Positions 49,842-63,949 of a stretch of DNA of 64,000 nt are shown here, in pieces. The stretch's first letter is position 1, and every line of letters starts with the position of its first letter. The notes under the pieces were generated by a model. It was not told the DNA's origin. It saw only the letters and a list, made by a program, of their open reading frames with translations, and made no database searches. This DNA is from Prevotella sp. Rep29 (GTDB taxonomy: Bacteria > Bacteroidota > Bacteroidia > Bacteroidales > Bacteroidaceae). Location of the stretch: assembly GCF_019551475.1 (NCBI RefSeq), contig NZ_CP047159.1:1178001-1242000 (forward strand), read 5' to 3'. The position numbers and the translations under genes were made by a program.

Positions 49842-51989
<2,148 letters not shown>

Positions 51990-51997
51990 TGACTTTG

Positions 51998-52028
51998 CAA
52001 AGGTAGTGGTTTTCTTTCGTTTTGCAAA
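51998..52028 (-). promoter_or_regulatory. GH97 promoter
   Basis: Read leftward: TTTG (complement of 52025-52028), 19 bases, TACCTTTG (complement of 51998-52005). The region between this and the rightward citrate lyase promoter holds nothing else recognised. Confidence 0.75.
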
Positions 52029-52120
52029 AGAAACGCGGCTTTTTGTTGGCTTTTTGATGGGTTATTTGTAAAAAATCATGTCAAAAAGAGAATGTGCGTC
52101 TCGATTTTTTGTGAAAAATA

Positions 52121-52152
52121 TTTGGAGGGTATTGAAATAATCCATATCTTTG
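52121..52152 (+). promoter_or_regulatory. promoter of the citrate lyase operon
   Basis: TTTG at 52121-52124, a 20-base spacer, TATCTTTG at 52145-52152. Transcription would begin near 52159, at the 5' edge of the cobalamin aptamer. Confidence 0.8.
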
Positions 52153-52155
52153 TAG

Positions 52156-52318
52156 CGTGAATTTGGTTCACGGATGGAAACAGACGTGATGAAAAGGGAA
52201 TCAGGTGTGAAACCTGAACAGTGCCCGCTGCTGTAAGCTCATTGTGTCATCGACTGAAAAGCCACTGTCCAACTGACGGGAAGGTGCCGGTGATTGAGTA
52301 AGTCAGAAGACCTGCCGG
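52156..52318 (+). ncRNA. cobalamin (vitamin B12) riboswitch
   Basis: The conserved aptamer blocks occur in order: GAAAAGGGAATCAGGTGTGA (52191-52210), AACAGTGCCCGCTGCTGTAA (52217-52236), GCCACTG (52261-52267), GACGGGAAGGTG (52274-52285) and AGTCAGAAGACCTGCCGG (52301-52318). Together they match the B12 box and core of the class I cobalamin riboswitch. It folds around adenosylcobalamin and normally lowers expression when B12 is plentiful. A 163-base stretch separates it from citD. No clear terminator is seen there, so control may act on translation. B12 uptake or synthesis genes, its usual targets, are absent here. Confidence 0.93.
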
Positions 52319-52481
52319 TTCATTTGTTTTGGAAATCCCCGGGGCTTGGGATGGATGAAAGAGTTCAGTAGTCTTGGCTTGGAAAACGGTAGAAGAACGG
52401 TGTATGCTGTTTGACGGTTGTCTATGGTATAAGATGAAAATCTTTCGGAATTTATTAACACATTATTTATATTATAGTATT

Positions 52482-52763
52482 ATGGAAATGAAGACAGCTT
52501 TTGCCGGTACACTTGAATCCGGTGATGTTCTGATTCAGATTGTGCCCACCGAAGAGGCTGGGTTGAAAATCAATCTTGACAGTACGGTTGCCTATCAGTT
52601 TGGCGACCAAATTAAGAAAGTCATTGCCGATACCCTCAAGGATTTAGGCATAGAAAACGCCATGGTCAATGCGACGGACAAGGGTGCACTCGACTGCACG
52701 ATACGTGCCCGTGTGACTGCGGCTGCCGTTCGTGCGACGGGTAAGGATGTTTGGAAAGATTAA
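52482..52763 (+). CDS. citD: citrate lyase acyl carrier protein (gamma subunit)
   Basis: Protein of 93 residues from ATG 52482; MKTAFAG at 52488 is an alternative start. AGTLESGDVLIQI contains the serine (13 or 11 by start) that carries the phosphoribosyl-dephospho-CoA prosthetic group. DKGALDCTIRARV is the second family signature. It is the swinging arm that presents the acyl group to CitE and CitF. First gene of the operon behind the B12 riboswitch, with an A/T-rich ribosome-binding region. An upstream in-frame extension overlaps the leader and is not supported. Confidence 0.93.
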   Translation: MEMKTAFAGTLESGDVLIQIVPTEEAGLKINLDSTVAYQFGDQIKKVIADTLKDLGIENAMVNATDKGALDCTIRARVTAAAVRATGKDVWKD

Positions 52764-52785
52764 AAATAAAAAACAAAATAAGATT

Positions 52786-53676
52786 ATGCAAAGGTTAAGA
52801 AGAACAATGATGTTTGTTCCAGGTAACAACCCCGCCATGATGCAGGATGCCTTTATCTATGCACCCGACTCCATCATGCTCGACCTGGAAGACTCAGTGA
52901 CCATGGCAGAGAAAGATGCTGCCCGTCTGCTGGTGTACAATGCGCTGAAAACCATCGACTACGGAGACACGGAGATGGTGGTGCGTATCAATCCACTGAA
53001 CACTCCGTACGGAAAGAAAGACGTTGAGGCGATGGTGAAAGCCGGTGTTCACGTCATCCGTATGCCGAAAACCGAAACGGCAGACGAGGTGCGCGAGGTG
53101 GAACAGGAGATTGAAAAAATCGAAACCGAACTGGGATGTGTGGGCAGAACAAAGATTATGGCTGCCATTGAGAGCGCTCTGGGTATCGTCAATGCCTACG
53201 ATATCGCCATCGCTTCAAAGCGTATGATGGGTATTGCGCTCGGTGCGGAAGACTACTGCGCCAACCTGAAGACGCAGCGCACACCGGGCGGTGCGGAGCT
53301 GCTGCTGGCACGCGAGACCATCGTTGTGGCGGCAAGGGCTGCCGGAATCGACGCACTGGATACCGTCTATTCGAATCTCAACGATATGGAAACCTTCCGT
53401 AAGGAGGTGGAACTGATTAAGACGTTGGGCTTTGACGGTAAGTCGATCATCAATCCACGTCAGATAGAAATCGTAAACGAAGTGTTTGCACCGAAAGAGA
53501 AGGATATTGAGAAAGCACAAACTATACTCGCTGCCATCAAGGAGGCAGAGAAGCGCGGTTCGGGCGTGATTGCCGTGAACGGAAAGATGGTCGATCGGCC
53601 TGTGGTGCTCAGGGCACAACGCACGATAGACCTTGCCATTGCATCGGGTATTTTATCAAAGGAGGACGTAGAATGA
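52786..53676 (+). CDS. citE: citrate lyase beta subunit (citryl-ACP lyase)
   Basis: Protein of 296 residues from ATG 52786 (MQRLRRTMMFVPGNNPAMMQ). The barrel carries DSIMLDLEDSVTMAEKD, with the metal-binding Glu/Asp, VVRINPLNTPYG, and KIMAAIESALGIVNAYDIA. It cleaves citryl-ACP into oxaloacetate and acetyl-ACP. Length agrees with CitE of other bacteria (about 300). The start is 22 bases after citD, and the end overlaps citF by 4 bases. It also resembles citramalate and malyl-CoA lyases, but the full citDEFXCG set supports a citrate lyase-type complex. Confidence 0.95.
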   Translation: MQRLRRTMMFVPGNNPAMMQDAFIYAPDSIMLDLEDSVTMAEKDAARLLVYNALKTIDYGDTEMVVRINPLNTPYGKKDVEAMVKAGVHVIRMPKTETADEVREVEQEIEKIETELGCVGRTKIMAAIESALGIVNAYDIAIASKRMMGIALGAEDYCANLKTQRTPGGAELLLARETIVVAARAAGIDALDTVYSNLNDMETFRKEVELIKTLGFDGKSIINPRQIEIVNEVFAPKEKDIEKAQTILAAIKEAEKRGSGVIAVNGKMVDRPVVLRAQRTIDLAIASGILSKEDVE

Positions 53677-55211
53677 ATAGCATAAAAGACAGGGCAGCGC
53701 TTATTGAGGCAGCAGCTGCAAAGATGGGAAAACAAACCTATCAGGACGGTGTACACGTGAAAGTGGCAACGCCGCGAAGTGAGTATCAGAAAGAGAGTTC
53801 GAAAGTGGTGACGCTGGAGGAAGCCATCCGCAAGACCGGTCTCAAGGACGGAATGACGATTTCGTTCCACCACCATTTCCGCAGTGGCGATAAAGTCATC
53901 AATATGGTTGTGGATAAACTGGCGGAGATGGGATTCAAGGATTTGCATATCGCTTCGTCCAGTCTGATTGACGTGCACGAACCGCTTATCGAACATGTGC
54001 GCAATGGCGTGATTACCCGCATTTCCACATCAGGACTGCGCGGCAAACTCGCGAAGGAAATTTCGCACGGACTGATGAAAGAGCCTGTGGTGTTCCGCTC
54101 GCATGGTGGTCGTGGTAGTGCGATTGCCAATGGCGACCTGCATATTGATGTCGCTTTCTTAGGCACATCATCGAGCGACCCGCTCGGAAATTCCTGCGGC
54201 TATTCGCGTTCAGAAAACGCCAAGTCTATCTGCGGTTCGCTGGGATATGCACTGCCCGATGCGCAGTATGCAGACAAAGTGGTGATTCTGACCGACGACC
54301 TCGTGTCGTACCCGAACACGCCGAATTCCATCTCAGAACGCAATGTGGATTATGTTGTTGTGGTAGATTCCGTCGGCGACTCTTCGAAGATTTCGTCAGG
54401 AGCTATTCGTGACACGAAGAATCCACGCGACATCCTGCTCGCACAGCAGGCTGCCAAAGTGATTATCAACAGCGGCTACTTCAAAGAGGGATTTTCTATC
54501 CAGACAGGTTCTGGAGGAGCTTCGCTGGCTGCCGTGAAATTCATCCGTGAGAGCATGATAGAAAAGGGCATCAAAGCCAGCTTTGCTTTGGGAGGAATCA
54601 CTGCCCACATGGTGAAGATGCGCGAGGAAGGACTCATCGAGCGCCTGATAGACGTGCAGTCGTTTGACAAGGTTGCAGCCGAATCGCTGAAGAGCGACCC
54701 GATGCACAAGGAAGTTTCGTCCAACGAATATGCCAGTGCTGATGAGCCCGGTTCGGCTACGCACTATCTGGATATGGTGATACTCTCGGCATTGGAAGTG
54801 GATGTCAACTTCAACGTCAACGTACTTGTCGGCAGCGACGGCATCATTCGTGGTGCTGTTGGTGGTCACCCGGATACATCAGCCGATTCAGCGCTTTCAA
54901 TTATTGTCTGCCCGCTCTTGCGTGGCCGCATCCCTTGTGTGGTGGAAGAAGTGACGACACTCATCACTCCGGGTTCGACGGTTGATGTGGTGGTGACCGA
55001 ATATGGTATTGCCGTGAACCCACGTCGTCCGGAAATCGCTGAGCGACTGACGAAAGCCGGACTGAAGGTGGTGGACATCCATTCGCTGAAAGAGCGGGCT
55101 GAGAAAATCATCGGAACACCGGCACCGTTGCCGTTCGGCGACAAGGTGGTGGGTATCGTGATGAATCGCGATGGTTCCGTACAGGATGTGATTAAGAATA
55201 TCATCGACTAA
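53673..55211 (+). CDS. citF: citrate lyase alpha subunit (citrate:acetyl-ACP transferase)
   Basis: Protein of 512 residues, the normal CitF size. It exchanges the acetyl group on the carrier protein for citrate. Signatures include GMTISFHHHFRSGDKVINMV near residue 70, FRSHGGRGSAIANGDLHIDVAF, FSIQTGSGGASLAAVKF and VVTEYGIAVNPRRPEIAERL, as in the family I CoA-transferase relatives. It overlaps citE by 4 bases and is followed 18 bases later by citX. Citramalate lyase alpha subunits are close relatives, so substrate needs a test. Confidence 0.94.
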   Translation: MNSIKDRAALIEAAAAKMGKQTYQDGVHVKVATPRSEYQKESSKVVTLEEAIRKTGLKDGMTISFHHHFRSGDKVINMVVDKLAEMGFKDLHIASSSLIDVHEPLIEHVRNGVITRISTSGLRGKLAKEISHGLMKEPVVFRSHGGRGSAIANGDLHIDVAFLGTSSSDPLGNSCGYSRSENAKSICGSLGYALPDAQYADKVVILTDDLVSYPNTPNSISERNVDYVVVVDSVGDSSKISSGAIRDTKNPRDILLAQQAAKVIINSGYFKEGFSIQTGSGGASLAAVKFIRESMIEKGIKASFALGGITAHMVKMREEGLIERLIDVQSFDKVAAESLKSDPMHKEVSSNEYASADEPGSATHYLDMVILSALEVDVNFNVNVLVGSDGIIRGAVGGHPDTSADSALSIIVCPLLRGRIPCVVEEVTTLITPGSTVDVVVTEYGIAVNPRRPEIAERLTKAGLKVVDIHSLKERAEKIIGTPAPLPFGDKVVGIVMNRDGSVQDVIKNIID

Positions 55212-55229
55212 GCACACATTATTTAATAT

Positions 55230-55739
55230 ATGGAGATTACGCTTGACCAGTTGTTGGAAAGCCGAGACAACCGATCTGCCATGCAAAAGGATTTGATGTC
55301 AAAGAATCCTGAGCAGACGTTGGTGTGTTTCACGGTGGTAATGCCAGGACAGGTCAAGCGTAACCGTTTGTCTGCCGTTATCGCGGAGGCAGGAATGGAA
55401 GCCCTGCGAGAGCGGTTTGGCGGAGACATCTTCCAGTGTATCGAGCGTGACCTTGAAACGGGCTTTGAGGCATATCTCCTGCTCTCCGTTCCAAAGATAG
55501 AAGCGAAGCAGACGCTATGTGAGATAGAAGACCGTCACCCGTTGGGCAGGCTTTTTGATATGGATGTCATTGACGCGACGGGTGTCCCTATATCTCGCAG
55601 CGATGCGCAGCGTCCGGCAAGAAAATGCCTGATGTGTGACAACGAAGCGCGCGTTTGCATGAGGAATAACACGCATACACAAAGTGAATTGCATGAGTGC
55701 ATCCATCAAATGGTAGAGCAGTATGTACGACGAGTTTGA
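55230..55739 (+). CDS. citX: apo-citrate lyase phosphoribosyl-dephospho-CoA transferase
   Basis: Protein of 169 residues. It attaches the prosthetic group made by CitG to the CitD serine. The C-terminal half shows HPLGRLFDMDVIDATG, then RKCLMCDNEARVCMRNNTHT, matching the R-C-x2-C-x4-A-x2-C-x-R-x3-H pattern of CitX. The N-terminal LLESRDNRSAMQKDLM is also typical. Slightly shorter than the E. coli protein (about 183). Its last 17 bases overlap the start of the citC-citG fusion, which argues for coupled translation. Confidence 0.9.
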   Translation: MEITLDQLLESRDNRSAMQKDLMSKNPEQTLVCFTVVMPGQVKRNRLSAVIAEAGMEALRERFGGDIFQCIERDLETGFEAYLLLSVPKIEAKQTLCEIEDRHPLGRLFDMDVIDATGVPISRSDAQRPARKCLMCDNEARVCMRNNTHTQSELHECIHQMVEQYVRRV

Positions 55740-57468
55740 AATACGCCAAGTGCCACTTTCGCTGAAAACCAGTCGGCAAAAAGTAGAGCGATTCTTGTCT
55801 GAGAATAATCTGAGATTGGACGAGCTCGACTATTATGCTGGCATCTTTCCGTTCCGAGAGGAGCAGTTGCTTGGTGGTGGCGGCTTGCAGCGCAATGTTA
55901 TCAAATGTATTGCCGTCAATGAGACGCTGCGTGAACACCAGATGGGACTTAAGTTGATTTCGCATCTGATTAATGTAGCAGTCAATAGCGGATATGAAAC
56001 GGTGCGTGTTTTCACGAAACCAGAGAACAAATACATCTTTGAAAGTATTGGCTTTTCTCTTGTAGGAACAGCACCAAAGGCGATTTTCATGGAAATCGGT
56101 CAGAACGGTATCAGCGCCTATTGCAAATATCTTTCCGTTCTCAAACGCGAGGGACGGAATGGTGTAATTGTAATGAATGCCAATCCTTTCACCAAAGGAC
56201 ACCGTTTCCTCATAGAGAAGGCATCGAAAGAGGTTGACAACCTGTATGTCATCGTTGTAAAAGAAGACCTTTCGCTCTTTTCTTATATGGAGCGAAAAGC
56301 GATGGTGGAGGCAGGTTGTAAGGACCTCGGCAATGTGGTCGTTTGTGACGGGAGTGACTACATTATCTCAGCACAGACGTTTCCGACCTACTTTTTGAAA
56401 GAATTGTCAGACGCATCCGACACTCAGATGAGTTTGGACCTGAATATTTTCGCTCACCATATTGCACACGCTTTGGATGCAAAGGTTCGTTTCGTGGGAA
56501 CTGAACCGACCGACCGATTGACGGGCAGATACAACGAACTGATGCGCGAAATTCTTCCGAACTATGAAATAGAGGTGATAGAGATTGACCGCATGTGCCA
56601 AGACGGTGGCGATATCGTCAGCGCTTCGGCCCTTAGACAGCATCTGGACAGCGGTTCTTTCTCGAAAGCAAAGGAGTTGGTTCCTCCCTCGACTGTTCCT
56701 TACCTGATTTCACGGCTGGCTTTGGATGCGCTGGAAGCAGAACTCTCCCTGACTCCCAAACCCGGACTTGTTGACAGAAAAGACAGTGGTGCTCATCAAG
56801 ATATGGACTACGAGCTCATGATGCGCAGTATTGCTGCACTCCGTCCTTATTTCAATCAACTGGCGTTGATGGGTTATAACGAAAAGATGCCAGAGGTGGA
56901 AGAAGTGATAAGTGTCGGACTGGCTGCTGAACAGGCGATGCTGAAAGCAACGTCGGGAGTGAACACCCATAAGGGAGCGCTGTTTGCATTGGGACTGACG
57001 ATTGTGGCAGCTGCCCATCTTGCATTCCAGAGAGGTGAGTTGGATTCCAAGCTGCTGCAGAAACACATATCGGAAATCGCCGAGCAGATACCATCAGCCA
57101 AGGAGACGCATGGAGCTGCTGTCGTTGAGCGTTATCAAATAGGCGGAGCACTTGCGGCAGCTCGCGATGGCTACCGGCAGTTGTTTGATGATTGGCTGCC
57201 ATGTCTGCAGGCGTTGAAAGACGCTCCGGATGGTCTGCACAAAACACTTTTGCGAGTGATGATGACCCTCGATGATACTAATGTATATTATCGCAAAGGA
57301 GCAGCAGCCGTCAAGATGATGAGGACAGCGGCAGGACAACTGCTGGAGGATTTCTCAATCGAAAAACTTGGAGAACTGAATGAAGGGTTTATTCATGAAA
57401 ACATCTCACCTGGAGGTTCGGCAGACATGCTTGCATTGACTATTTTCGTAAATTCAATATTATCTTAA
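55723..57468 (+). CDS. fused citrate lyase ligase (CitC) and triphosphoribosyl-dephospho-CoA synthase (CitG)
   Basis: Single protein of 581 residues. Residues 1-135 are a GNAT-like domain (ETVRVFTKPENKYIFESIGF). Residues 145-330 are the CitC nucleotidyltransferase with MNANPFTKGH (151-160), which acetylates the prosthetic group using ATP and acetate. Residues 335-581 are CitG, with TPKPGLVDRKDSGAH (344-358), SGVNTHKGALFALG (411-424) and SPGGSADMLA near the end, which makes the prosthetic-group precursor from ATP and dephospho-CoA. The usual genes are separate, or citG is fused to citX. Both halves keep their motifs, so both activities are likely. Confidence 0.9.
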   Translation: MYDEFEIRQVPLSLKTSRQKVERFLSENNLRLDELDYYAGIFPFREEQLLGGGGLQRNVIKCIAVNETLREHQMGLKLISHLINVAVNSGYETVRVFTKPENKYIFESIGFSLVGTAPKAIFMEIGQNGISAYCKYLSVLKREGRNGVIVMNANPFTKGHRFLIEKASKEVDNLYVIVVKEDLSLFSYMERKAMVEAGCKDLGNVVVCDGSDYIISAQTFPTYFLKELSDASDTQMSLDLNIFAHHIAHALDAKVRFVGTEPTDRLTGRYNELMREILPNYEIEVIEIDRMCQDGGDIVSASALRQHLDSGSFSKAKELVPPSTVPYLISRLALDALEAELSLTPKPGLVDRKDSGAHQDMDYELMMRSIAALRPYFNQLALMGYNEKMPEVEEVISVGLAAEQAMLKATSGVNTHKGALFALGLTIVAAAHLAFQRGELDSKLLQKHISEIAEQIPSAKETHGAAVVERYQIGGALAAARDGYRQLFDDWLPCLQALKDAPDGLHKTLLRVMMTLDDTNVYYRKGAAAVKMMRTAAGQLLEDFSIEKLGELNEGFIHENISPGGSADMLALTIFVNSILS

Positions 57469-57499
57469 TACAAAATATTAACTTTTTAATCTTAAAATC

Positions 57500-59743
57500 A
57501 TGGTTGAACTAATCAAACAAGGAGTTTATCTACTCAACGGTTCAGAAATCGCAACGAATGCTGCGAATGTTCCTTCTCCAGACGACGCTCGGGAGAACAC
57601 CATCACTTATCAGATTCTCCGCGCACACGACGTGGAAGGCGGTAAGGGTAAGAAAATGCGTATCAAATTCGATGCGATGATGTCACACGACATCACTTAT
57701 GTGGGCATTATCCAGACGGCTCGCGCAAGCGGCTTGAAGAAATTCCCCATTCCTTACGCAATGACCAACTGTCATAACTCTCTCTGCGCCGTTGGTGGTA
57801 CCATCAACGAGGATGACCACGTGTTCGGTCTCTCCGCAGCAAAGAAATATGGCGGTATCTATGTGCCAGCCAATCAGGCAGTCATCCATCAGTATGCCCG
57901 TGAGGCAATGGTGAAGTGTGGTAACATGATTCTCGGTTCCGACAGCCATACGCGTTATGGTTCACTCGGAAACATGGGTGTCGGAGAAGGTGGTGGCGAG
58001 CTCGTTAAGCAGCTGTTGGAGAACACTTGGGACATCAATGCGCCTGAAGTGGTTCTCGTTTGGCTCGAGGGTGCGCCTCGCAAGGGTGTCGGTCCTCACG
58101 ACGTAGCTATCTCGCTCGTGAAGGCAGTCTTCGACAATGGTTTCGTGAAGAACAAAGTGTTGGAGTTTGCCGGTCCCGGCGTGAAAAATCTTCCGATTGA
58201 CTTCCGTAACGGTATCGATATCATGACGACGGAAACAACCTGCTTGAGCTCTATCTGGGTGACCGATGAGGAGGTGAAGCATCATTACGATATTCACTGC
58301 CGTCCCGAAGACTACAAAGAGTTGCAGCCGGGTGCGGTGGCTTACTATGACGGAATGATTCGCATCGACCTCTCTAAGCAGGAGTCAATGATTGCATTGC
58401 CGTTCCATCCGTCAAATGCCTATACCATTCACGAGTTGCAGGCAGATCCTGAGCGCATTCTCCGTGAAGTGGAAGAGGATGCTAAGAAGCGCTTCGGTGA
58501 TAAGATTTCTGTTGATTTGGTCAGCAAGGTTCAGAATGGTAAGGTGATGGCAGATCAGGGAATCATCGCCGGCTGTTCAGGAGGAACCTACGACAACCTC
58601 AGTGCTGCAGCTGCGATATTGAACGGCAAGTCTGTCGGCAATGATTATTTCACCATTTCTGCTTATCCGCAGTCAGTGCCAGTATATATGGCTACAACTC
58701 GAAATAAGATTGCCGAAGAACTGCTTGAGGCTGGTGTCGTGATTAAGCCGGCATTCTGCGGACCTTGCTTCGGTGCAGGTGATGTGCCGTCGAATAACGG
58801 TCTGAGTATCCGTCACACCACACGTAACTTCCCCAACCGTGAAGGTTCAAAACCTGGTCAGGGACAGATTTCGCTCGTGGCATTGATGGACGCACGTTCA
58901 ATTGCTGCAACAGCAGCTAACGGTGGCATTATCACAGCAGCTACTGATATTGATTTCGAGGATACACACAAGCCCTACGACTTCGATGCGAAGATTTATG
59001 AGCGCCGTGTTTATAATGGCTATGCGAAAGCAGATGACAGCCAGGAACTCAAATACGGTCCGAACATCAAAGACTGGCCTAAGATGTATCCGATGGAGGA
59101 GAACATGTTGCTCGAGTTGGCAGCAGTCATCCACGATCCGGTGACGACGACCGACGAGTTGATTCCTTCCGGTGAGACGTCAAGCTACCGCTCTAATCCG
59201 CTGAAACTTTCCGAGTTTGCACTGTCGCGCCGTGTACCGGAGTATGTTGGCATCAGCAAGCGCATACAGTCGGAAGACCTGGAGCGTCGTGCAGGTAATG
59301 TGCCTCAGAATGTCTGTGATGCGCTGGCGAAAGTTGGTGCTGATGCGAAGAATACTTCATTCGGTTCTTGCGTCTTCGCCAATCGTCCTGGTGACGGTTC
59401 TGCACGCGAGCAGGCAGCATCTTGCCAGAAAGTGCTTGGCGGTGATGCCAACATCTGCTATGAATATGCGACAAAACGCTATCGCAGCAACTGTATCAAC
59501 TGGGGTATCGTGCCGTTCACCATTGCACAGGAGACACCGTTCGACTATACCGCTGGTGATTTCGTGTTTATTCCCGGTATTCGCGAGGCAATTCTCGGAG
59601 GCAAAGAGGAAATTGATGCGAAGGTTATCACAGCCAATGGCGTGAAAGACATCCACCTCTTCTTCCAGAACCTGACTGCCGACGAGCGTCAGATTCTTGC
59701 CGACGGCTGTCTGATGAACTACTATGCTGCACAGCGCAAATAA
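57500..59743 (+). CDS. aconitate hydratase
   Basis: Protein of 747 residues, the mitochondrial/Bacteroidota-type aconitase. It interconverts citrate and isocitrate with a 4Fe-4S cluster. The cluster cysteines lie in IIAGCSGGTYDN and PAFCGPCFGAGD. Further active-site segments are GSDSHTRYGSLGNMGVGEGG, ANGGIITAATDIDFEDTH and the swivel-domain GSCVFANRPGDGSAREQAA. It starts 31 bases after citC-citG with no hairpin between, so it is in the riboswitch operon, an uncommon partner for citrate lyase. Confidence 0.95.
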   Translation: MVELIKQGVYLLNGSEIATNAANVPSPDDARENTITYQILRAHDVEGGKGKKMRIKFDAMMSHDITYVGIIQTARASGLKKFPIPYAMTNCHNSLCAVGGTINEDDHVFGLSAAKKYGGIYVPANQAVIHQYAREAMVKCGNMILGSDSHTRYGSLGNMGVGEGGGELVKQLLENTWDINAPEVVLVWLEGAPRKGVGPHDVAISLVKAVFDNGFVKNKVLEFAGPGVKNLPIDFRNGIDIMTTETTCLSSIWVTDEEVKHHYDIHCRPEDYKELQPGAVAYYDGMIRIDLSKQESMIALPFHPSNAYTIHELQADPERILREVEEDAKKRFGDKISVDLVSKVQNGKVMADQGIIAGCSGGTYDNLSAAAAILNGKSVGNDYFTISAYPQSVPVYMATTRNKIAEELLEAGVVIKPAFCGPCFGAGDVPSNNGLSIRHTTRNFPNREGSKPGQGQISLVALMDARSIAATAANGGIITAATDIDFEDTHKPYDFDAKIYERRVYNGYAKADDSQELKYGPNIKDWPKMYPMEENMLLELAAVIHDPVTTTDELIPSGETSSYRSNPLKLSEFALSRRVPEYVGISKRIQSEDLERRAGNVPQNVCDALAKVGADAKNTSFGSCVFANRPGDGSAREQAASCQKVLGGDANICYEYATKRYRSNCINWGIVPFTIAQETPFDYTAGDFVFIPGIREAILGGKEEIDAKVITANGVKDIHLFFQNLTADERQILADGCLMNYYAAQRK

Positions 59744-59782
59744 AAGAAACAATCAATTATCAACAAATAACAATTAAAGAAA

Positions 59783-61000
59783 ATGGATACAAAGAAAATT
59801 CAAATGACCACTCCATTGGTAGAGATGGATGGTGACGAGATGACCAGAATCCTCTGGAAAATGATTAAGGACGAGCTGATTCTCCCGTTCGTGGATCTGA
59901 AAACAGAATACTACGACCTCGGTCTTCCTAAGCGTGACGAGACACGCGACCAGATTACTGTTGACTCGGCTGAGGCAACGAAGAAGTATGGTGTGGCTGT
60001 GAAGTGTGCGACCATTACGCCGAACCATCAGCGTATGGACGAATACAAGCTCCATGAAATGTGGAAGAGCCCTAACGGAACGATTCGTTCGATTCTCGAC
60101 GGTACTGTTTTCCGTACACCAATCACCATTCCTTCCATCAAACCGGCAGTGAAAAACTGGGAAAAGCCGATTACCATTGCCCGTCATGCTTACGGTGACG
60201 TTTACAAGAGCGTAGAAATTCGCGTGACAGAACCGGGTACTGCCAAGATGGTTTTCGAAGGTGAGAGTGGCAAGAAAGAAGAAGTGGTTATCCACAATTT
60301 CAAGGGCGAAGGTGTGCTTCAGGGCATGCACAACACCGACAAGTCTATCCGCTCGTTTGCACATAGCTGCTTCAAGTTCGCGCTCGACACAAACCAAGAC
60401 GTTTGGTTCTCAACAAAAGACACGATATCAAAGAAATACGATGCACAGTTCAAGATTATCTTTGAGGAAGTGTTTGAGGAATATAAAGCTGAATTTGAGA
60501 AGAAAGGACTCGAGTATTTCTATACGCTTATCGACGATGCTGTGGCACGTGTTATCCGTTCTAAGGGTGGTTACATCTGGGCATGTAAGAACTATGACGG
60601 TGACGTGATGAGCGATATGGTTTCTACCGCATTCGGTTCACTCGCCATGATGACGAGCGTCCTCGTAAGCCCGGACGGAAAATACGAGTATGAGGCTGCG
60701 CACGGAACCGTTACGCGCCACTACTACAAATATCTCAAGGGTGAAGAGACATCGACCAACCCGATGGCTACCATCTTCGCATGGACAGGTGCCTTGCGCA
60801 AGCGTGGTGAACTGGATGGCATCAACGAGCTCGTGAACTTCGCCAATCAGTTGGAAGGCGCATGTTTCGACACACTCAACGAGGGAATCGTGACCAAAGA
60901 CCTTGTGAACCTGATGGAAGGAATTACTCCGACAGCAGTCAACTCTGCTGGCTTCATCGGTGCTATCCGCGAGCGTCTTGAGAAGCGTCTGGCAAACTAA
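59783..61000 (+). CDS. icd: NADP-dependent isocitrate dehydrogenase
   Basis: Protein of 405 residues of the homodimeric, eukaryote-like type II group. It starts TPLVEMDGDEMTRILWKMIKDE, with substrate-binding SPNGTIRSILDGTVFR, metal-binding SKGGYIWACKNYDGDV, and EAAHGTVTRHY plus a downstream basic residue as expected for NADP. It converts isocitrate to 2-oxoglutarate, CO2 and NADPH, and the reverse reaction is possible at high CO2. Start 39 bases after aconitase. It is followed by a rho-independent terminator, so it closes the operon. Confidence 0.95.
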   Translation: MDTKKIQMTTPLVEMDGDEMTRILWKMIKDELILPFVDLKTEYYDLGLPKRDETRDQITVDSAEATKKYGVAVKCATITPNHQRMDEYKLHEMWKSPNGTIRSILDGTVFRTPITIPSIKPAVKNWEKPITIARHAYGDVYKSVEIRVTEPGTAKMVFEGESGKKEEVVIHNFKGEGVLQGMHNTDKSIRSFAHSCFKFALDTNQDVWFSTKDTISKKYDAQFKIIFEEVFEEYKAEFEKKGLEYFYTLIDDAVARVIRSKGGYIWACKNYDGDVMSDMVSTAFGSLAMMTSVLVSPDGKYEYEAAHGTVTRHYYKYLKGEETSTNPMATIFAWTGALRKRGELDGINELVNFANQLEGACFDTLNEGIVTKDLVNLMEGITPTAVNSAGFIGAIRERLEKRLAN

Positions 61001-61017
61001 AGTAATGACTGGAAAGA

Positions 61018-61049
61018 CTGCCAAAGGGTGCAAGTCCTTGGCAGTTTTT
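61018..61049 (+). terminator. terminator of the citrate lyase-aconitase-icd operon
   Basis: CTGCCAAAGG pairs with CCTTGGCAG (one bulged base), followed by TTTTT, 18 bases past icd. Confidence 0.88.
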
Positions 61050-61083
61050 CTTGTTTTGTTTACGCTCATTACTAAAAAAGTGC

Positions 61084-61091
61084 TACCTTTG
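61084..61091 (+). promoter_or_regulatory. -7 element before the NfnAB-like gene
   Basis: TACCTTTG, 32 bases before the start codon. The nearest TTTG (61055-61058) has a 25-base spacer, longer than usual. Confidence 0.5.
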
Positions 61092-61123
61092 CACGTCGTT
61101 TAGTAAATAAGTAACATGGCATT

Positions 61124-63484
61124 ATGAATAAGATTGTACGAAAGGAGCAATTCTCTGAGAAAGTTTTTTTGCTTGAAGTGGAGGCTCCGCTGATTGCGAA
61201 AAGTAGGAAAGCCGGTAATTTTGTCATCGTGCGCGTTGGTAAAAAGGGTGAGCGGGTGCCGCTGACCATAGCCGATGCCGACATCAACAAAGGCACCATC
61301 ACGTTGGTAGTGCAGGCGGTCGGGCTTTCTACCACCAAACTCTGTGCACTGAACGAGGGCGACTTGATTGATGATGTCGTAGGACCGTTGGGTAATCCGA
61401 CACATATCGAGAAGTTCGGAACCGTGCTTTGTGCAGGCGGTGGAGTAGGTGTAGCCCCGATGCTGCCGATTATCAAGGCGCTGAAAGAGGCGGGCAACCG
61501 CGTGCTTTCCGTCTTGGCAGGAAGAAGTAAAGACCTCATTATCCTCGAAAACGAAGTACGTAAGTATAGCGACAAGGTGGTCATCATGACCGACGACGGC
61601 TCGTATGGCGAGAAAGGTGTCGTGACAGTAGGAATGGAAAAGCTCATTAATGAAGAGCATGTCGATAAGGCGTTCGCCATTGGACCGGCCATCATGATGA
61701 AGTTCTGCTGTCTGCTTACGCAGAAATACAACATCCCCACCGACGTTTCGCTCAATACCATCATGGTTGACGGAACGGGAATGTGCGGCGCGTGCCGACT
61801 GACTATCGGCGGAAAGACAAAGTTTGTCTGCATCGACGGACCTGAGTTTGATGGATTCCAGGTTGATTGGGACGAGATGTTCAAGCGCATGGGCACCTTC
61901 AAGCGGGTGGAAGCCGAAGACATGAAAAACCTTCAGGCGCATATTGACAGCGTCCAACCGCAAGCCGCTGCCGAAAAGACTTCCCATGGAGTGGAGGAGA
62001 GCACGGCAGCCTGTGGCGGTCAATGCACTATTGAGGAGCTGACCGACCGCGACGCCGCATGGCGAAAGGAATTGCGCGCATCGATGAAACCGAAAGAGCG
62101 CACGCAGATTGCGCGTGTCATCATGCCCGAACTTGACCCGGAATATCGTTCGAAGACACGTCTGGAAGAGGTGAACACCGGTCTGACCAAAGAGATGGCG
62201 ATGACCGAAGCCAAGCGCTGTCTCGACTGTGCAAAGCCGACGTGCGTGGAAGGCTGTCCTGTCAATATCAACATCCCATCGTTCATTAAGAATATAGAGC
62301 GCGGAGACTTCCTCTCGGCAGCCAAGGTGCTCAAAAACACATCCGCACTTCCAGCAGTCTGCGGTCGCGTTTGCCCGCAGGAGAAGCAGTGCGAGAGCAA
62401 GTGTATTCATCTGAAGATGAACGAACCAGCTGTCGCTATCGGGTATCTGGAGCGTTTCGCTGCCGACTATGAGCGCGAAAGCGGACAGATGTCTGTTCCC
62501 GAGATTGCCCCGGCAAACGGCATGAAGATTGCTGTCGTGGGTTCAGGACCAGCAGGACTTTCATTCGCCGGCGATATGATTAAGAAGGGATATGACGTGT
62601 ATGTGTTTGAAGCATTGCACGAAATCGGCGGTGTCTTGAAATACGGAATTCCCGAATTCCGTCTGCCGAACGCTATCGTTGACGTGGAAATAGAAAACCT
62701 CAAGAAGATGGGTGTGCATTTCCAGACCGACGTGATTGTCGGAAAGACCATCAGCGTCAGCGAACTCGAGGCTGAAGGATTCAAAGGAATCTTCGTGGGT
62801 TCGGGCGCCGGACTGCCCAATTTCATGAACATTCCCGGCGAGAACGCCATCAACATCATGTCGTCAAATGAGTATCTCACGCGTGTCAACCTGATGGATG
62901 CAGCAAGCGAGACCACCGATACGCCCATCAACAAAGCCAAGCACGTGCTCGTGGTGGGTGGCGGAAACACGGCGATGGACTCCTGTCGCACGGCGAAACG
63001 GCTCGGTGCTGACGTGACACTCGTTTACCGGCGCTCTGAAGAAGAGATGCCCGCACGCCTCGAGGAGGTGAAACATGCGAAAGAAGAGGGCATCGACTTC
63101 CTCACGTTGCATAATCCCATCGAATACATTGCCGACGAGAACGGAGCCGTAAAAGCTGCCGTGCTGCAGGTGATGGAGTTGGGAGAGCCTGACGAGAGCG
63201 GTCGCCGGAGCCCCGTTCCTGTGGAAGGGAAGACGGTCACGCTGGATGTTGACCAGGTGGTAGTTGCCGTAGGCGTGTCGCCGAACCCGTTGGTTCCGAA
63301 GTCAATCGAAGGACTTGAACTCGGCAGGAAGAACACGATTGCCGTGAACGACGAGATGCGGAGCTCGATTCCGACCATCTATGCCGGCGGCGATATCGTG
63401 CGCGGCGGTGCAACGGTCATCCTCGCCATGGGTGACGGACGACGGGCGGCACTCAATATGGACCGTCAGCTGAGCGGAAAATAA
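61124..63484 (+). CDS. fused NfnAB-like ferredoxin-NAD(P) oxidoreductase (GltD/PyrK-type)
   Basis: Protein of 786 residues. Residues 1-275 are a PyrK/NfnA-type FAD/NAD module with RVPLTIADADINKGT, GGGVGVAPMLP and a 2Fe-2S site pattern D216-x4-C221-x2-C224-x11-C236, three Cys plus one Asp as reported for NfnA. Residues 320-786 are a GltD/NfnB module with two 4Fe-4S motifs (RCLDCAKPTCVEGCP and CGRVCPQEKQCESKC), FAD-binding VVGSGPAGLSFAGDM and NADP-binding VVGGGNTAMDSCRTAKR. Databases often call it dihydroorotate dehydrogenase B/glutamate synthase. A fused electron-bifurcating Nfn fits better, because no pyrD or gltB is adjacent. Confidence 0.85.
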   Translation: MNKIVRKEQFSEKVFLLEVEAPLIAKSRKAGNFVIVRVGKKGERVPLTIADADINKGTITLVVQAVGLSTTKLCALNEGDLIDDVVGPLGNPTHIEKFGTVLCAGGGVGVAPMLPIIKALKEAGNRVLSVLAGRSKDLIILENEVRKYSDKVVIMTDDGSYGEKGVVTVGMEKLINEEHVDKAFAIGPAIMMKFCCLLTQKYNIPTDVSLNTIMVDGTGMCGACRLTIGGKTKFVCIDGPEFDGFQVDWDEMFKRMGTFKRVEAEDMKNLQAHIDSVQPQAAAEKTSHGVEESTAACGGQCTIEELTDRDAAWRKELRASMKPKERTQIARVIMPELDPEYRSKTRLEEVNTGLTKEMAMTEAKRCLDCAKPTCVEGCPVNINIPSFIKNIERGDFLSAAKVLKNTSALPAVCGRVCPQEKQCESKCIHLKMNEPAVAIGYLERFAADYERESGQMSVPEIAPANGMKIAVVGSGPAGLSFAGDMIKKGYDVYVFEALHEIGGVLKYGIPEFRLPNAIVDVEIENLKKMGVHFQTDVIVGKTISVSELEAEGFKGIFVGSGAGLPNFMNIPGENAINIMSSNEYLTRVNLMDAASETTDTPINKAKHVLVVGGGNTAMDSCRTAKRLGADVTLVYRRSEEEMPARLEEVKHAKEEGIDFLTLHNPIEYIADENGAVKAAVLQVMELGEPDESGRRSPVPVEGKTVTLDVDQVVVAVGVSPNPLVPKSIEGLELGRKNTIAVNDEMRSSIPTIYAGGDIVRGGATVILAMGDGRRAALNMDRQLSGK

Positions 63485-63511
63485 ACGATATAACATCGTT
63501 ACACTGAAACG

Positions 63512-63549
63512 ACCTGCATCGCTTTTTTATGGAGCGGTGCAGGTTTTTT
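63512..63549 (+). terminator. terminator of the NfnAB-like gene
   Basis: An 11-base-pair stem ACCTGCATCGC / GCGGTGCAGGT (one wobble) with a T-rich loop and TTTTTT at the end. Confidence 0.9.
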
Positions 63550-63699
63550 CGTGATATTGGCAGAAAAAACACTGTTTGCAGTGGTGGCAAAAATGGAAAA
63601 CAGGACTGCAAAAAGGTCGCAAGACGGAGTGCAAAATGTCATTTTCTTTTTACAAAAATCAGGGTCTGGAATGCTGAAATTTCCGGAGTAATATTTATG

Positions 63700-63845
63700 C
63701 GTAGAACTGTATAAAAATACAGGTTAAACTTTCGTTTTCCAAAAGTTCAACTTTTGGAAACGACTTTCCAATATTTTGATTATCAGTTGTTTACGAAAGC
63801 GAATATGAAACGTGATGCACTGCATAAAAATACAAAAGTGCATGT
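63700..63845. repeat. palindrome-array element, copy 5 (single unit)
   Basis: Borders of the GTATAAAAATACAGG and GCATAAAAATACAAAA type. Inside is one perfect palindrome at 63738-63762, with 12-base arms TTTCCAAAAGTT and AACTTTTGGAAA around a single C. This appears to be the smallest form of the element. The sequence from 63550 to 63700 has nothing recognised. Confidence 0.75.
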
Positions 63846-63949
63846 TGCTTAATAGGGCAATTATTCTCATTTCTTTACAAAACAAACAGGATGTTACTTC
63901 ATCGGGTTAATTTCTTTGTCAGGCGGACTTATAATTCGGATATTTTGCC

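Follow-up and report, generated by a model that had tools for sequence, protein, structure and literature searches.

A cobalamin riboswitch ahead of a citrate lyase, aconitase and isocitrate dehydrogenase operon in Prevotella sp. Rep29 and its association with a methylaspartate operon

Results

The 64-kb stretch of the Prevotella sp. Rep29 genome analyzed here (contig NZ_CP047159.1, positions 1,178,001 to 1,242,000; hereafter the window, whose own numbering is used unless genome positions are stated) carries a cobalamin (vitamin B12) riboswitch aptamer in front of an operon for citrate lyase, an aconitase-family hydratase and isocitrate dehydrogenase. The aptamer lies on the forward strand at 52147..52333, where cmscan matches RF00174 over the full model (1-189) with 99 bits (E 1.6e-23) against a gathering score of 31.5, and it is the sole Rfam match above gathering across the window. 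The purpose-built model R1 scores it at 164 bits, this copy being itself part of the R1 training set. An exact copy of TTTG-N20-TATCTTTG, which we take to be the Bacteroidota promoter consensus, occupies 52121..52152 on the same strand, and there is no second exact match within 51901-63900. Since the promoter ends at 52152, the predicted transcription start falls approximately at the first helix of the aptamer, as the first-pass annotation of this DNA had proposed, and the aptamer sits in the predicted 5' leader behind the promoter with citD 148 nt downstream.

Seven genes follow on the same strand as the aptamer, in the order citD-citE-citF-citX-citCG-aconitase-icd according to NCBIfam profiles. 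The lyase itself is encoded by citD (acyl carrier protein, gamma, 52482..52763; TIGR01608, 111 bits, cut-off 63.5), citE (beta, 52786..53676; TIGR01588, 462 bits, cut-off 443) and citF (alpha, 53673..55211; TIGR01584, 710 bits, cut-off 501). The maturation genes citX (holo-acyl carrier protein synthase, 55230..55739; TIGR03124, 157 bits, cut-off 105) and a citC-citG fusion (55723..57468), which joins citrate lyase ligase (TIGR00124, 308 bits, cut-off 262) to triphosphoribosyl-dephospho-CoA synthase, complete the citrate lyase gene set of citD, citE and citF plus citC, citX and citG; the CitG half stays under its own equivalog cut-offs (TIGR03132, 241 bits, cut-off 282). The hydratase at 57500..59743 is of the PRK11413/YbhJ type (NF008503, 1209 bits, cut-off 641; PF00330) and is assigned as a predicted aconitase by its gene context. 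It scores far under the mitochondrial-type and AcnA cut-offs. The series ends with icd, an NADP isocitrate dehydrogenase (59783..61000; NF006156, 647 bits, cut-off 335). The intergenic gaps are, in operon order, 22, -4, 18, -17, 31 and 39 nt, and a terminator-like stem with a T-run follows on the same strand at about 61017..61050, recognized by eye and absent from the consensus scan; the earlier description of one operon with every gap below 40 nt thus holds. To our knowledge, none of the enzyme families in the operon uses B12, and the first-pass statement to that effect agrees with what is established about these families.

A methylaspartate operon is present elsewhere in the host genome, a single contig of 2.73 Mb that is 99.6% complete. 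At genome positions 2117240-2123748 lie glmS, glmL, glmE, mal, an AtuA-family gene and a DUF4387 gene, the first four all exceeding their NCBIfam equivalog cut-offs. The B12-binding domain PF02310, which does not capture all B12 enzymes, occurs twice in the genome, once in the 137-residue glutamate mutase subunit S encoded by glmS, the first gene of this operon, and once in methylmalonyl-CoA mutase (MCM; mutAB), so that both B12-dependent mutases that the first-pass annotation had in mind are present. Citrate synthase (PF00285) gave no match in the host genome, and the identical search was positive in 13 of 14 control genomes. KorA exceeds its cut-off, and a frame named by eye as KorB-like adjoins it.

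Compared with solved structures, the AtuA-family protein resembles CmlA (E 1.4e-149) and the DUF4387 protein CmlB (E 2.5e-30); the matched entries, PDB 9erq and 9evf, were named citramalate lyase subunits A and B by their depositors. On this similarity and these names, the pair would be homologues of the citramalate lyase CmlAB, and since the glm operon carries its own CmlAB homologues, CitDEF need not serve the methylaspartate pathway. DUF1446 and AtuA are one family. In enterobacteria a DUF1446 gene of unknown function is reported to lie downstream of mal, and the fate of citramalate is described as unclear (PMC4682846). The class I fumarase family includes mesaconases (PMC4682846). A class I fumarase gene is found about 1.2 kb beyond the host glm operon, with one 168-residue frame in between, and its product is 88-90% identical to the counterpart at the related locus L006, where glmS and the aptamer are 2.6 kb apart and the class I fumarase is the only frame of at least 90 residues between them. 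The gene encodes a candidate mesaconase, and the genome thus appears able to convert glutamate to acetate and pyruvate by a B12-dependent pathway that has its own lyase. At L146, L147 and L148, from genomes with glm and without citF, a protein of about 314 residues is encoded after the glm operon, and next to it comes a class I fumarase whose alpha and beta parts are separate genes; the two copies of this protein that were scanned, from L146 and L148, gave no Pfam match.

A contig scan of relatives yielded 80 citF loci (labelled L, with their genomes labelled G; L005 is in G150, L006 in G151, and G000 is the genome of the window). Complete citE, citF, acn and icd were found in 46 of them. At L007, L009, L038, L056 and L057, part of the operon order is absent although the contigs continue, and other loci end too early. 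At least 1000 nt before citE could be inspected in 74 distinct loci besides the window (76 listed, two duplicates removed), and the aptamer was found in three, L005, L006 and L150. Detection relied on a looser scan, on Rfam for 16 fetched loci besides the window, and on R1, which was built from six sequences including the window, L005 and L006 and gave its one held-out positive, L150, 150 bits. Strict regular expressions were dropped because they missed three of the four riboswitches of the Rep29 genome itself, and a candidate at L147, with a weak R1 match only (13.7 bits, E 0.23) and no Rfam support, was rejected. In all four aptamer-bearing leaders the exact promoter motif is found at the 5' edge of the aptamer, and the aptamer core and promoter are kept while the linker to citD diverges and shows poor conservation.

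GlmE (PF06368) was searched for in 59 citF-positive genome entries, 56 of them distinct once three duplicates were removed, and was found in G000 and G151. Together with G303, which came from a separate search (below), these are the only GlmE-positive genomes among the citF-positive ones tested, and all three bear the aptamer. The aptamer-cit operon of G151 adjoins the glm operon and the fumarase gene. G150 has no GlmE, but cmlA-cmlB, the 3' end of a glm operon, lies exactly at its contig end. The association set consisted of 55 distinct citF-positive genomes with the leader covered and GlmE tested. Within it, the glm operon occurs in all four genomes with the aptamer (in G150 as its 3' end only), and GlmE in 0 of the 51 without it (47 loci plus G010, G047, G069 and G123); the genomes of L011 and G141, where the leader was not covered, are also GlmE-negative. 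An independent search found GlmE in 13 of 398 genomes of the same genus, only two of which, G000 and G303, have citF. G303 had been chosen for having both GlmE and citF and was then found to carry the aptamer before citD, as predicted. Fisher's exact test gives 2.9e-6 for 4 of 4 versus 0 of 51, and 0.002 if G303 is dropped and L005 treated as GlmE-negative; as the genomes are related, these values indicate size only. Across the order, GlmE is above its cut-off in 9 of 393 genomes, eight of them besides the host. G631, from another family, combines a distant GlmE with a CitF at 42% identity (L160, C21), but acn, icd and the aptamer are missing from the 14 kb around CitF, and we therefore did not include it as a further case; the lyase is possibly a citramalate lyase of the CitDEF type.

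The relationships of the operons were examined in a 48-operon tree of CitE, CitF, Acn and Icd, in which the window groups with L005 and L006 in a supported clade, with L150 apart. The sister group of this clade consists of five operons, L011 included, in which no aptamer was found.

Downstream of icd, an NfnAB-like fusion is encoded at 61124..63484 on the forward strand (NF009414, 1357 bits, cut-off 1103). It has its own TACCTTTG promoter box at 61084, which suggests that it is probably transcribed separately from the cit operon. Such a fused transhydrogenase gene lies 3' of icd in all four aptamer-bearing loci, and its product could provide the NADPH or ferredoxin needed if the route runs reductively. 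The Rep29 genome has four cobalamin riboswitches in total. Two of those outside the window precede genes that by eye, with no family search, resemble TonB-dependent receptors. The remaining one, at L003:1501-1682 (genome 1755160-1755341), is strong (93 bits) and has no evident downstream gene; a terminator-like stem was seen by eye about 200 nt downstream, and its target may be a short RNA or peptide.

Discussion

The presence of the glm operon alongside the aptamer, and the failure to find it in those relatives examined that lack the aptamer, suggest that these Prevotella-like gut bacteria swap one pathway for another that does not need B12. We give about even chances to the reading that the cit-acn-icd operon is a B12-free stand-in for the methylaspartate route under an OFF riboswitch. 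When B12 is plentiful, the riboswitch would keep the operon off, and glutamate would be converted by GlmSE to 3-methylaspartate and by Mal to mesaconate and ammonia; mesaconate would then be hydrated to citramalate by the class I fumarase acting as mesaconase, and CmlAB would cleave citramalate to acetate and pyruvate. When B12 is short, glutamate mutase would halt and the operon would be made, and glutamate would pass through 2-oxoglutarate to isocitrate, by reductive carboxylation on Icd, and on to citrate, which citrate lyase would split into acetate and oxaloacetate, the latter giving pyruvate and CO2. On paper, both routes amount to glutamate + H2O -> NH3 + acetate + pyruvate, an equality that assumes that glutamate dehydrogenase uses the same NADP(H) as Icd and that oxaloacetate is decarboxylated. 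The broader claim, that the riboswitch toggles a whole fermentation with the same overall products and different labelling of acetate, falls just short of an even chance in our estimation. Acetate would derive from C1-C2 of glutamate in the methylaspartate route and from C4-C5 in the route through Si-citrate and citrate lyase.

The evidence behind this pathway swap is the aptamer, the promoter, the gene order, the lack of a citrate synthase match, the glm operon and their co-occurrence, and from it we infer the OFF direction, the direction of flux, the mesaconase role and the functional substitution. The cleavage direction is favored thermodynamically. The majority of cobalamin riboswitches repress (PMC11575231).

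Several observations weigh against the pathway swap. The leader between the aptamer and citD (52334..52481, forward strand) has no recognizable expression platform, since the consensus scan lists no intrinsic terminator ahead of citD, and it folds no better than its shuffles (z -0.17; 45 of 100 shuffles equally good). GlmE also occurs without the cit genes, in 11 further genomes of the genus without citF and in seven of the eight other GlmE-bearing Bacteroidales genomes, which have no clear CitF (in two of them partial matches score about 20 bits), and the methylaspartate pathway therefore does not need a cit backup. The comparison genomes are mostly metagenome-assembled or draft genomes, in which an absence can be an assembly gap. 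For only four GlmE-negative citF-positive genomes is a completeness of at least 90% with no more than 5% contamination known, and one of them (G127) has a short leader; among high-quality citF-positive genomes, counting that of the window, the GlmE tally is 1 of 5. All 13 genus-wide GlmE matches come from the 175 high-quality genomes, with no match in the remaining 223, which makes absence from drafts weak evidence. The history of the operons adds to these points: a single origin of the four aptamer operons is neither supported nor rejected (p-AU 0.25), only two independent pairs are available (sign test p 0.5, with L005 coded as glm-positive), and the association reflects one or two evolutionary events. 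We conclude that the association of the aptamer with glm is clear but shallow.

The first-pass annotation had proposed that the operon offsets B12-dependent steps and had named glutamate mutase and MCM. The glutamate mutase part of this proposal is strengthened by the finding of GlmE, among the citF-positive genomes tested, only together with the aptamer, while the MCM part is weakened. In the latter explanation the operon would make up for the loss of MCM, succinyl-CoA being drawn through KorAB, Icd, aconitase and citrate lyase, and a reductive tricarboxylic acid cycle would be an outlet for electrons and carbon when propionate formation stops. The host has mutAB, KorA and the adjacent KorB-like frame, MCM-sized frames are present in three of the four aptamer-bearing genomes, and B12-dependent propionate formation is known in the related X. 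ruminicola (PMC11575231). However, MCM-sized frames are also present in 12 of 23 distinct citF-positive genomes without a found aptamer, so that MCM discriminates poorly. These counts come from a survey of PF02310 in 31 genome entries in which MCM was inferred from size and domain (714-756 residues), and the aptamer-negative set held 24 entries (23 distinct), with one more frame of 363 residues and with the short leader of G127. In addition, X. ruminicola KHP1 has four cobalamin riboswitches, none of them near propionate genes (PMC11575231). We consider the MCM explanation weakened and rather unlikely, at something under one chance in four. The pathways could also both be biosynthetic, the methylaspartate enzymes making glutamate with B12 and the cit-acn-icd enzymes making 2-oxoglutarate from acetate and oxaloacetate without it. 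The stoichiometric equivalence is as valid in reverse, and the missing citrate synthase match would suit such a role, but KorAB is a simpler route to 2-oxoglutarate, and the equilibria of citrate lyase and citramalate lyase favor cleavage at cellular concentrations; we regard this as improbable.

It has been proposed for clostridial clusters, where CitDEF homologues beside glm genes are assigned to citramalate, that CitDEF is the citramalate lyase of the methylaspartate pathway itself (PMC4682846), and the adjacent glm and cit operons at L006 would fit that assignment. Here, it is disfavored by the CmlAB homologues of the glm operon and by the lyase sharing its operon with aconitase and icd, in an order that is the same in relatives without a found GlmE; a B12-repressed lyase would moreover be off while the mutase is active. 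The probability of this explanation is very small, and hardly larger is that of an incidental or inert aptamer, gained by rearrangement and uncoupled from the metabolism of the operon. An inert element would agree with the lack of a recognizable expression platform and with the poorly conserved linker, but not with an aptamer core and promoter that have been kept at four of four loci while the linker diverged.

The pathway swap resembles the metE versus metH switches in that RF00174 precedes B12-free genes and the B12-dependent alternative is in the same genome, and differs in that an entire pathway would be replaced, by one that shares no individual step with it. The isofunctional replacements that we know of all swap single enzymes. 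Replacement of a B12-dependent enzyme by an isofunctional one is an established target class of cobalamin riboswitches, and the replacements named in the available parts of PMC3766115, PMC2211319 and PMC9600662 are single-enzyme swaps. As in the methylaspartate fermentation of PMC4682846, we find glmS-glmL-glmE-mal and a class I fumarase as mesaconase candidate, with the same predicted net conversion of glutamate to ammonia, acetate and pyruvate. Unlike in the clusters described there, the lyase candidate is the AtuA/DUF4387 pair (CmlAB, PDB 9erq) and not CitDEF, whose genes stand apart from glm behind a B12 aptamer and share their operon with acn and icd.

Citrate fermenters have a citrate lyase cluster, citCDEFXG, with the same subunits and maturation genes as here; in contrast to it, the Rep29 operon has no citrate transporter and continues into aconitase and icd, and its genome gave no citrate synthase match. 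Bacteroides has a citrate synthase-aconitase-icd cluster, with which the acn-icd pair is shared, citrate lyase genes here replacing citrate synthase. Among the matches listed in open-licence PMC for cobalamin riboswitches in connection with citrate lyase, citrate or glutamate mutase, no title or abstract start describes such a system, in agreement with the first-pass view that there is no described case. That annotation was right about the riboswitch and the operon, and it made no use of the glm operon, of CmlAB, of the lack of a citrate synthase match or of the equal stoichiometry of the two routes. The isofunctional-replacement switch is known; any novelty would lie in which genes are controlled and in the scale, with a pathway being replaced and not just an enzyme.

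If the pathway swap is true, a whole pathway is exchanged for one that shares no step with it and yet has the same net reaction, which gives a clean isotope-labelling prediction. It would also make amino-acid fermentation in the rumen and gut depend on B12 supply, and it suggests a possible role for the citrate lyase-aconitase-icd cluster of many Bacteroidales, which in Rep29 occurs with no citrate synthase match in the genome.

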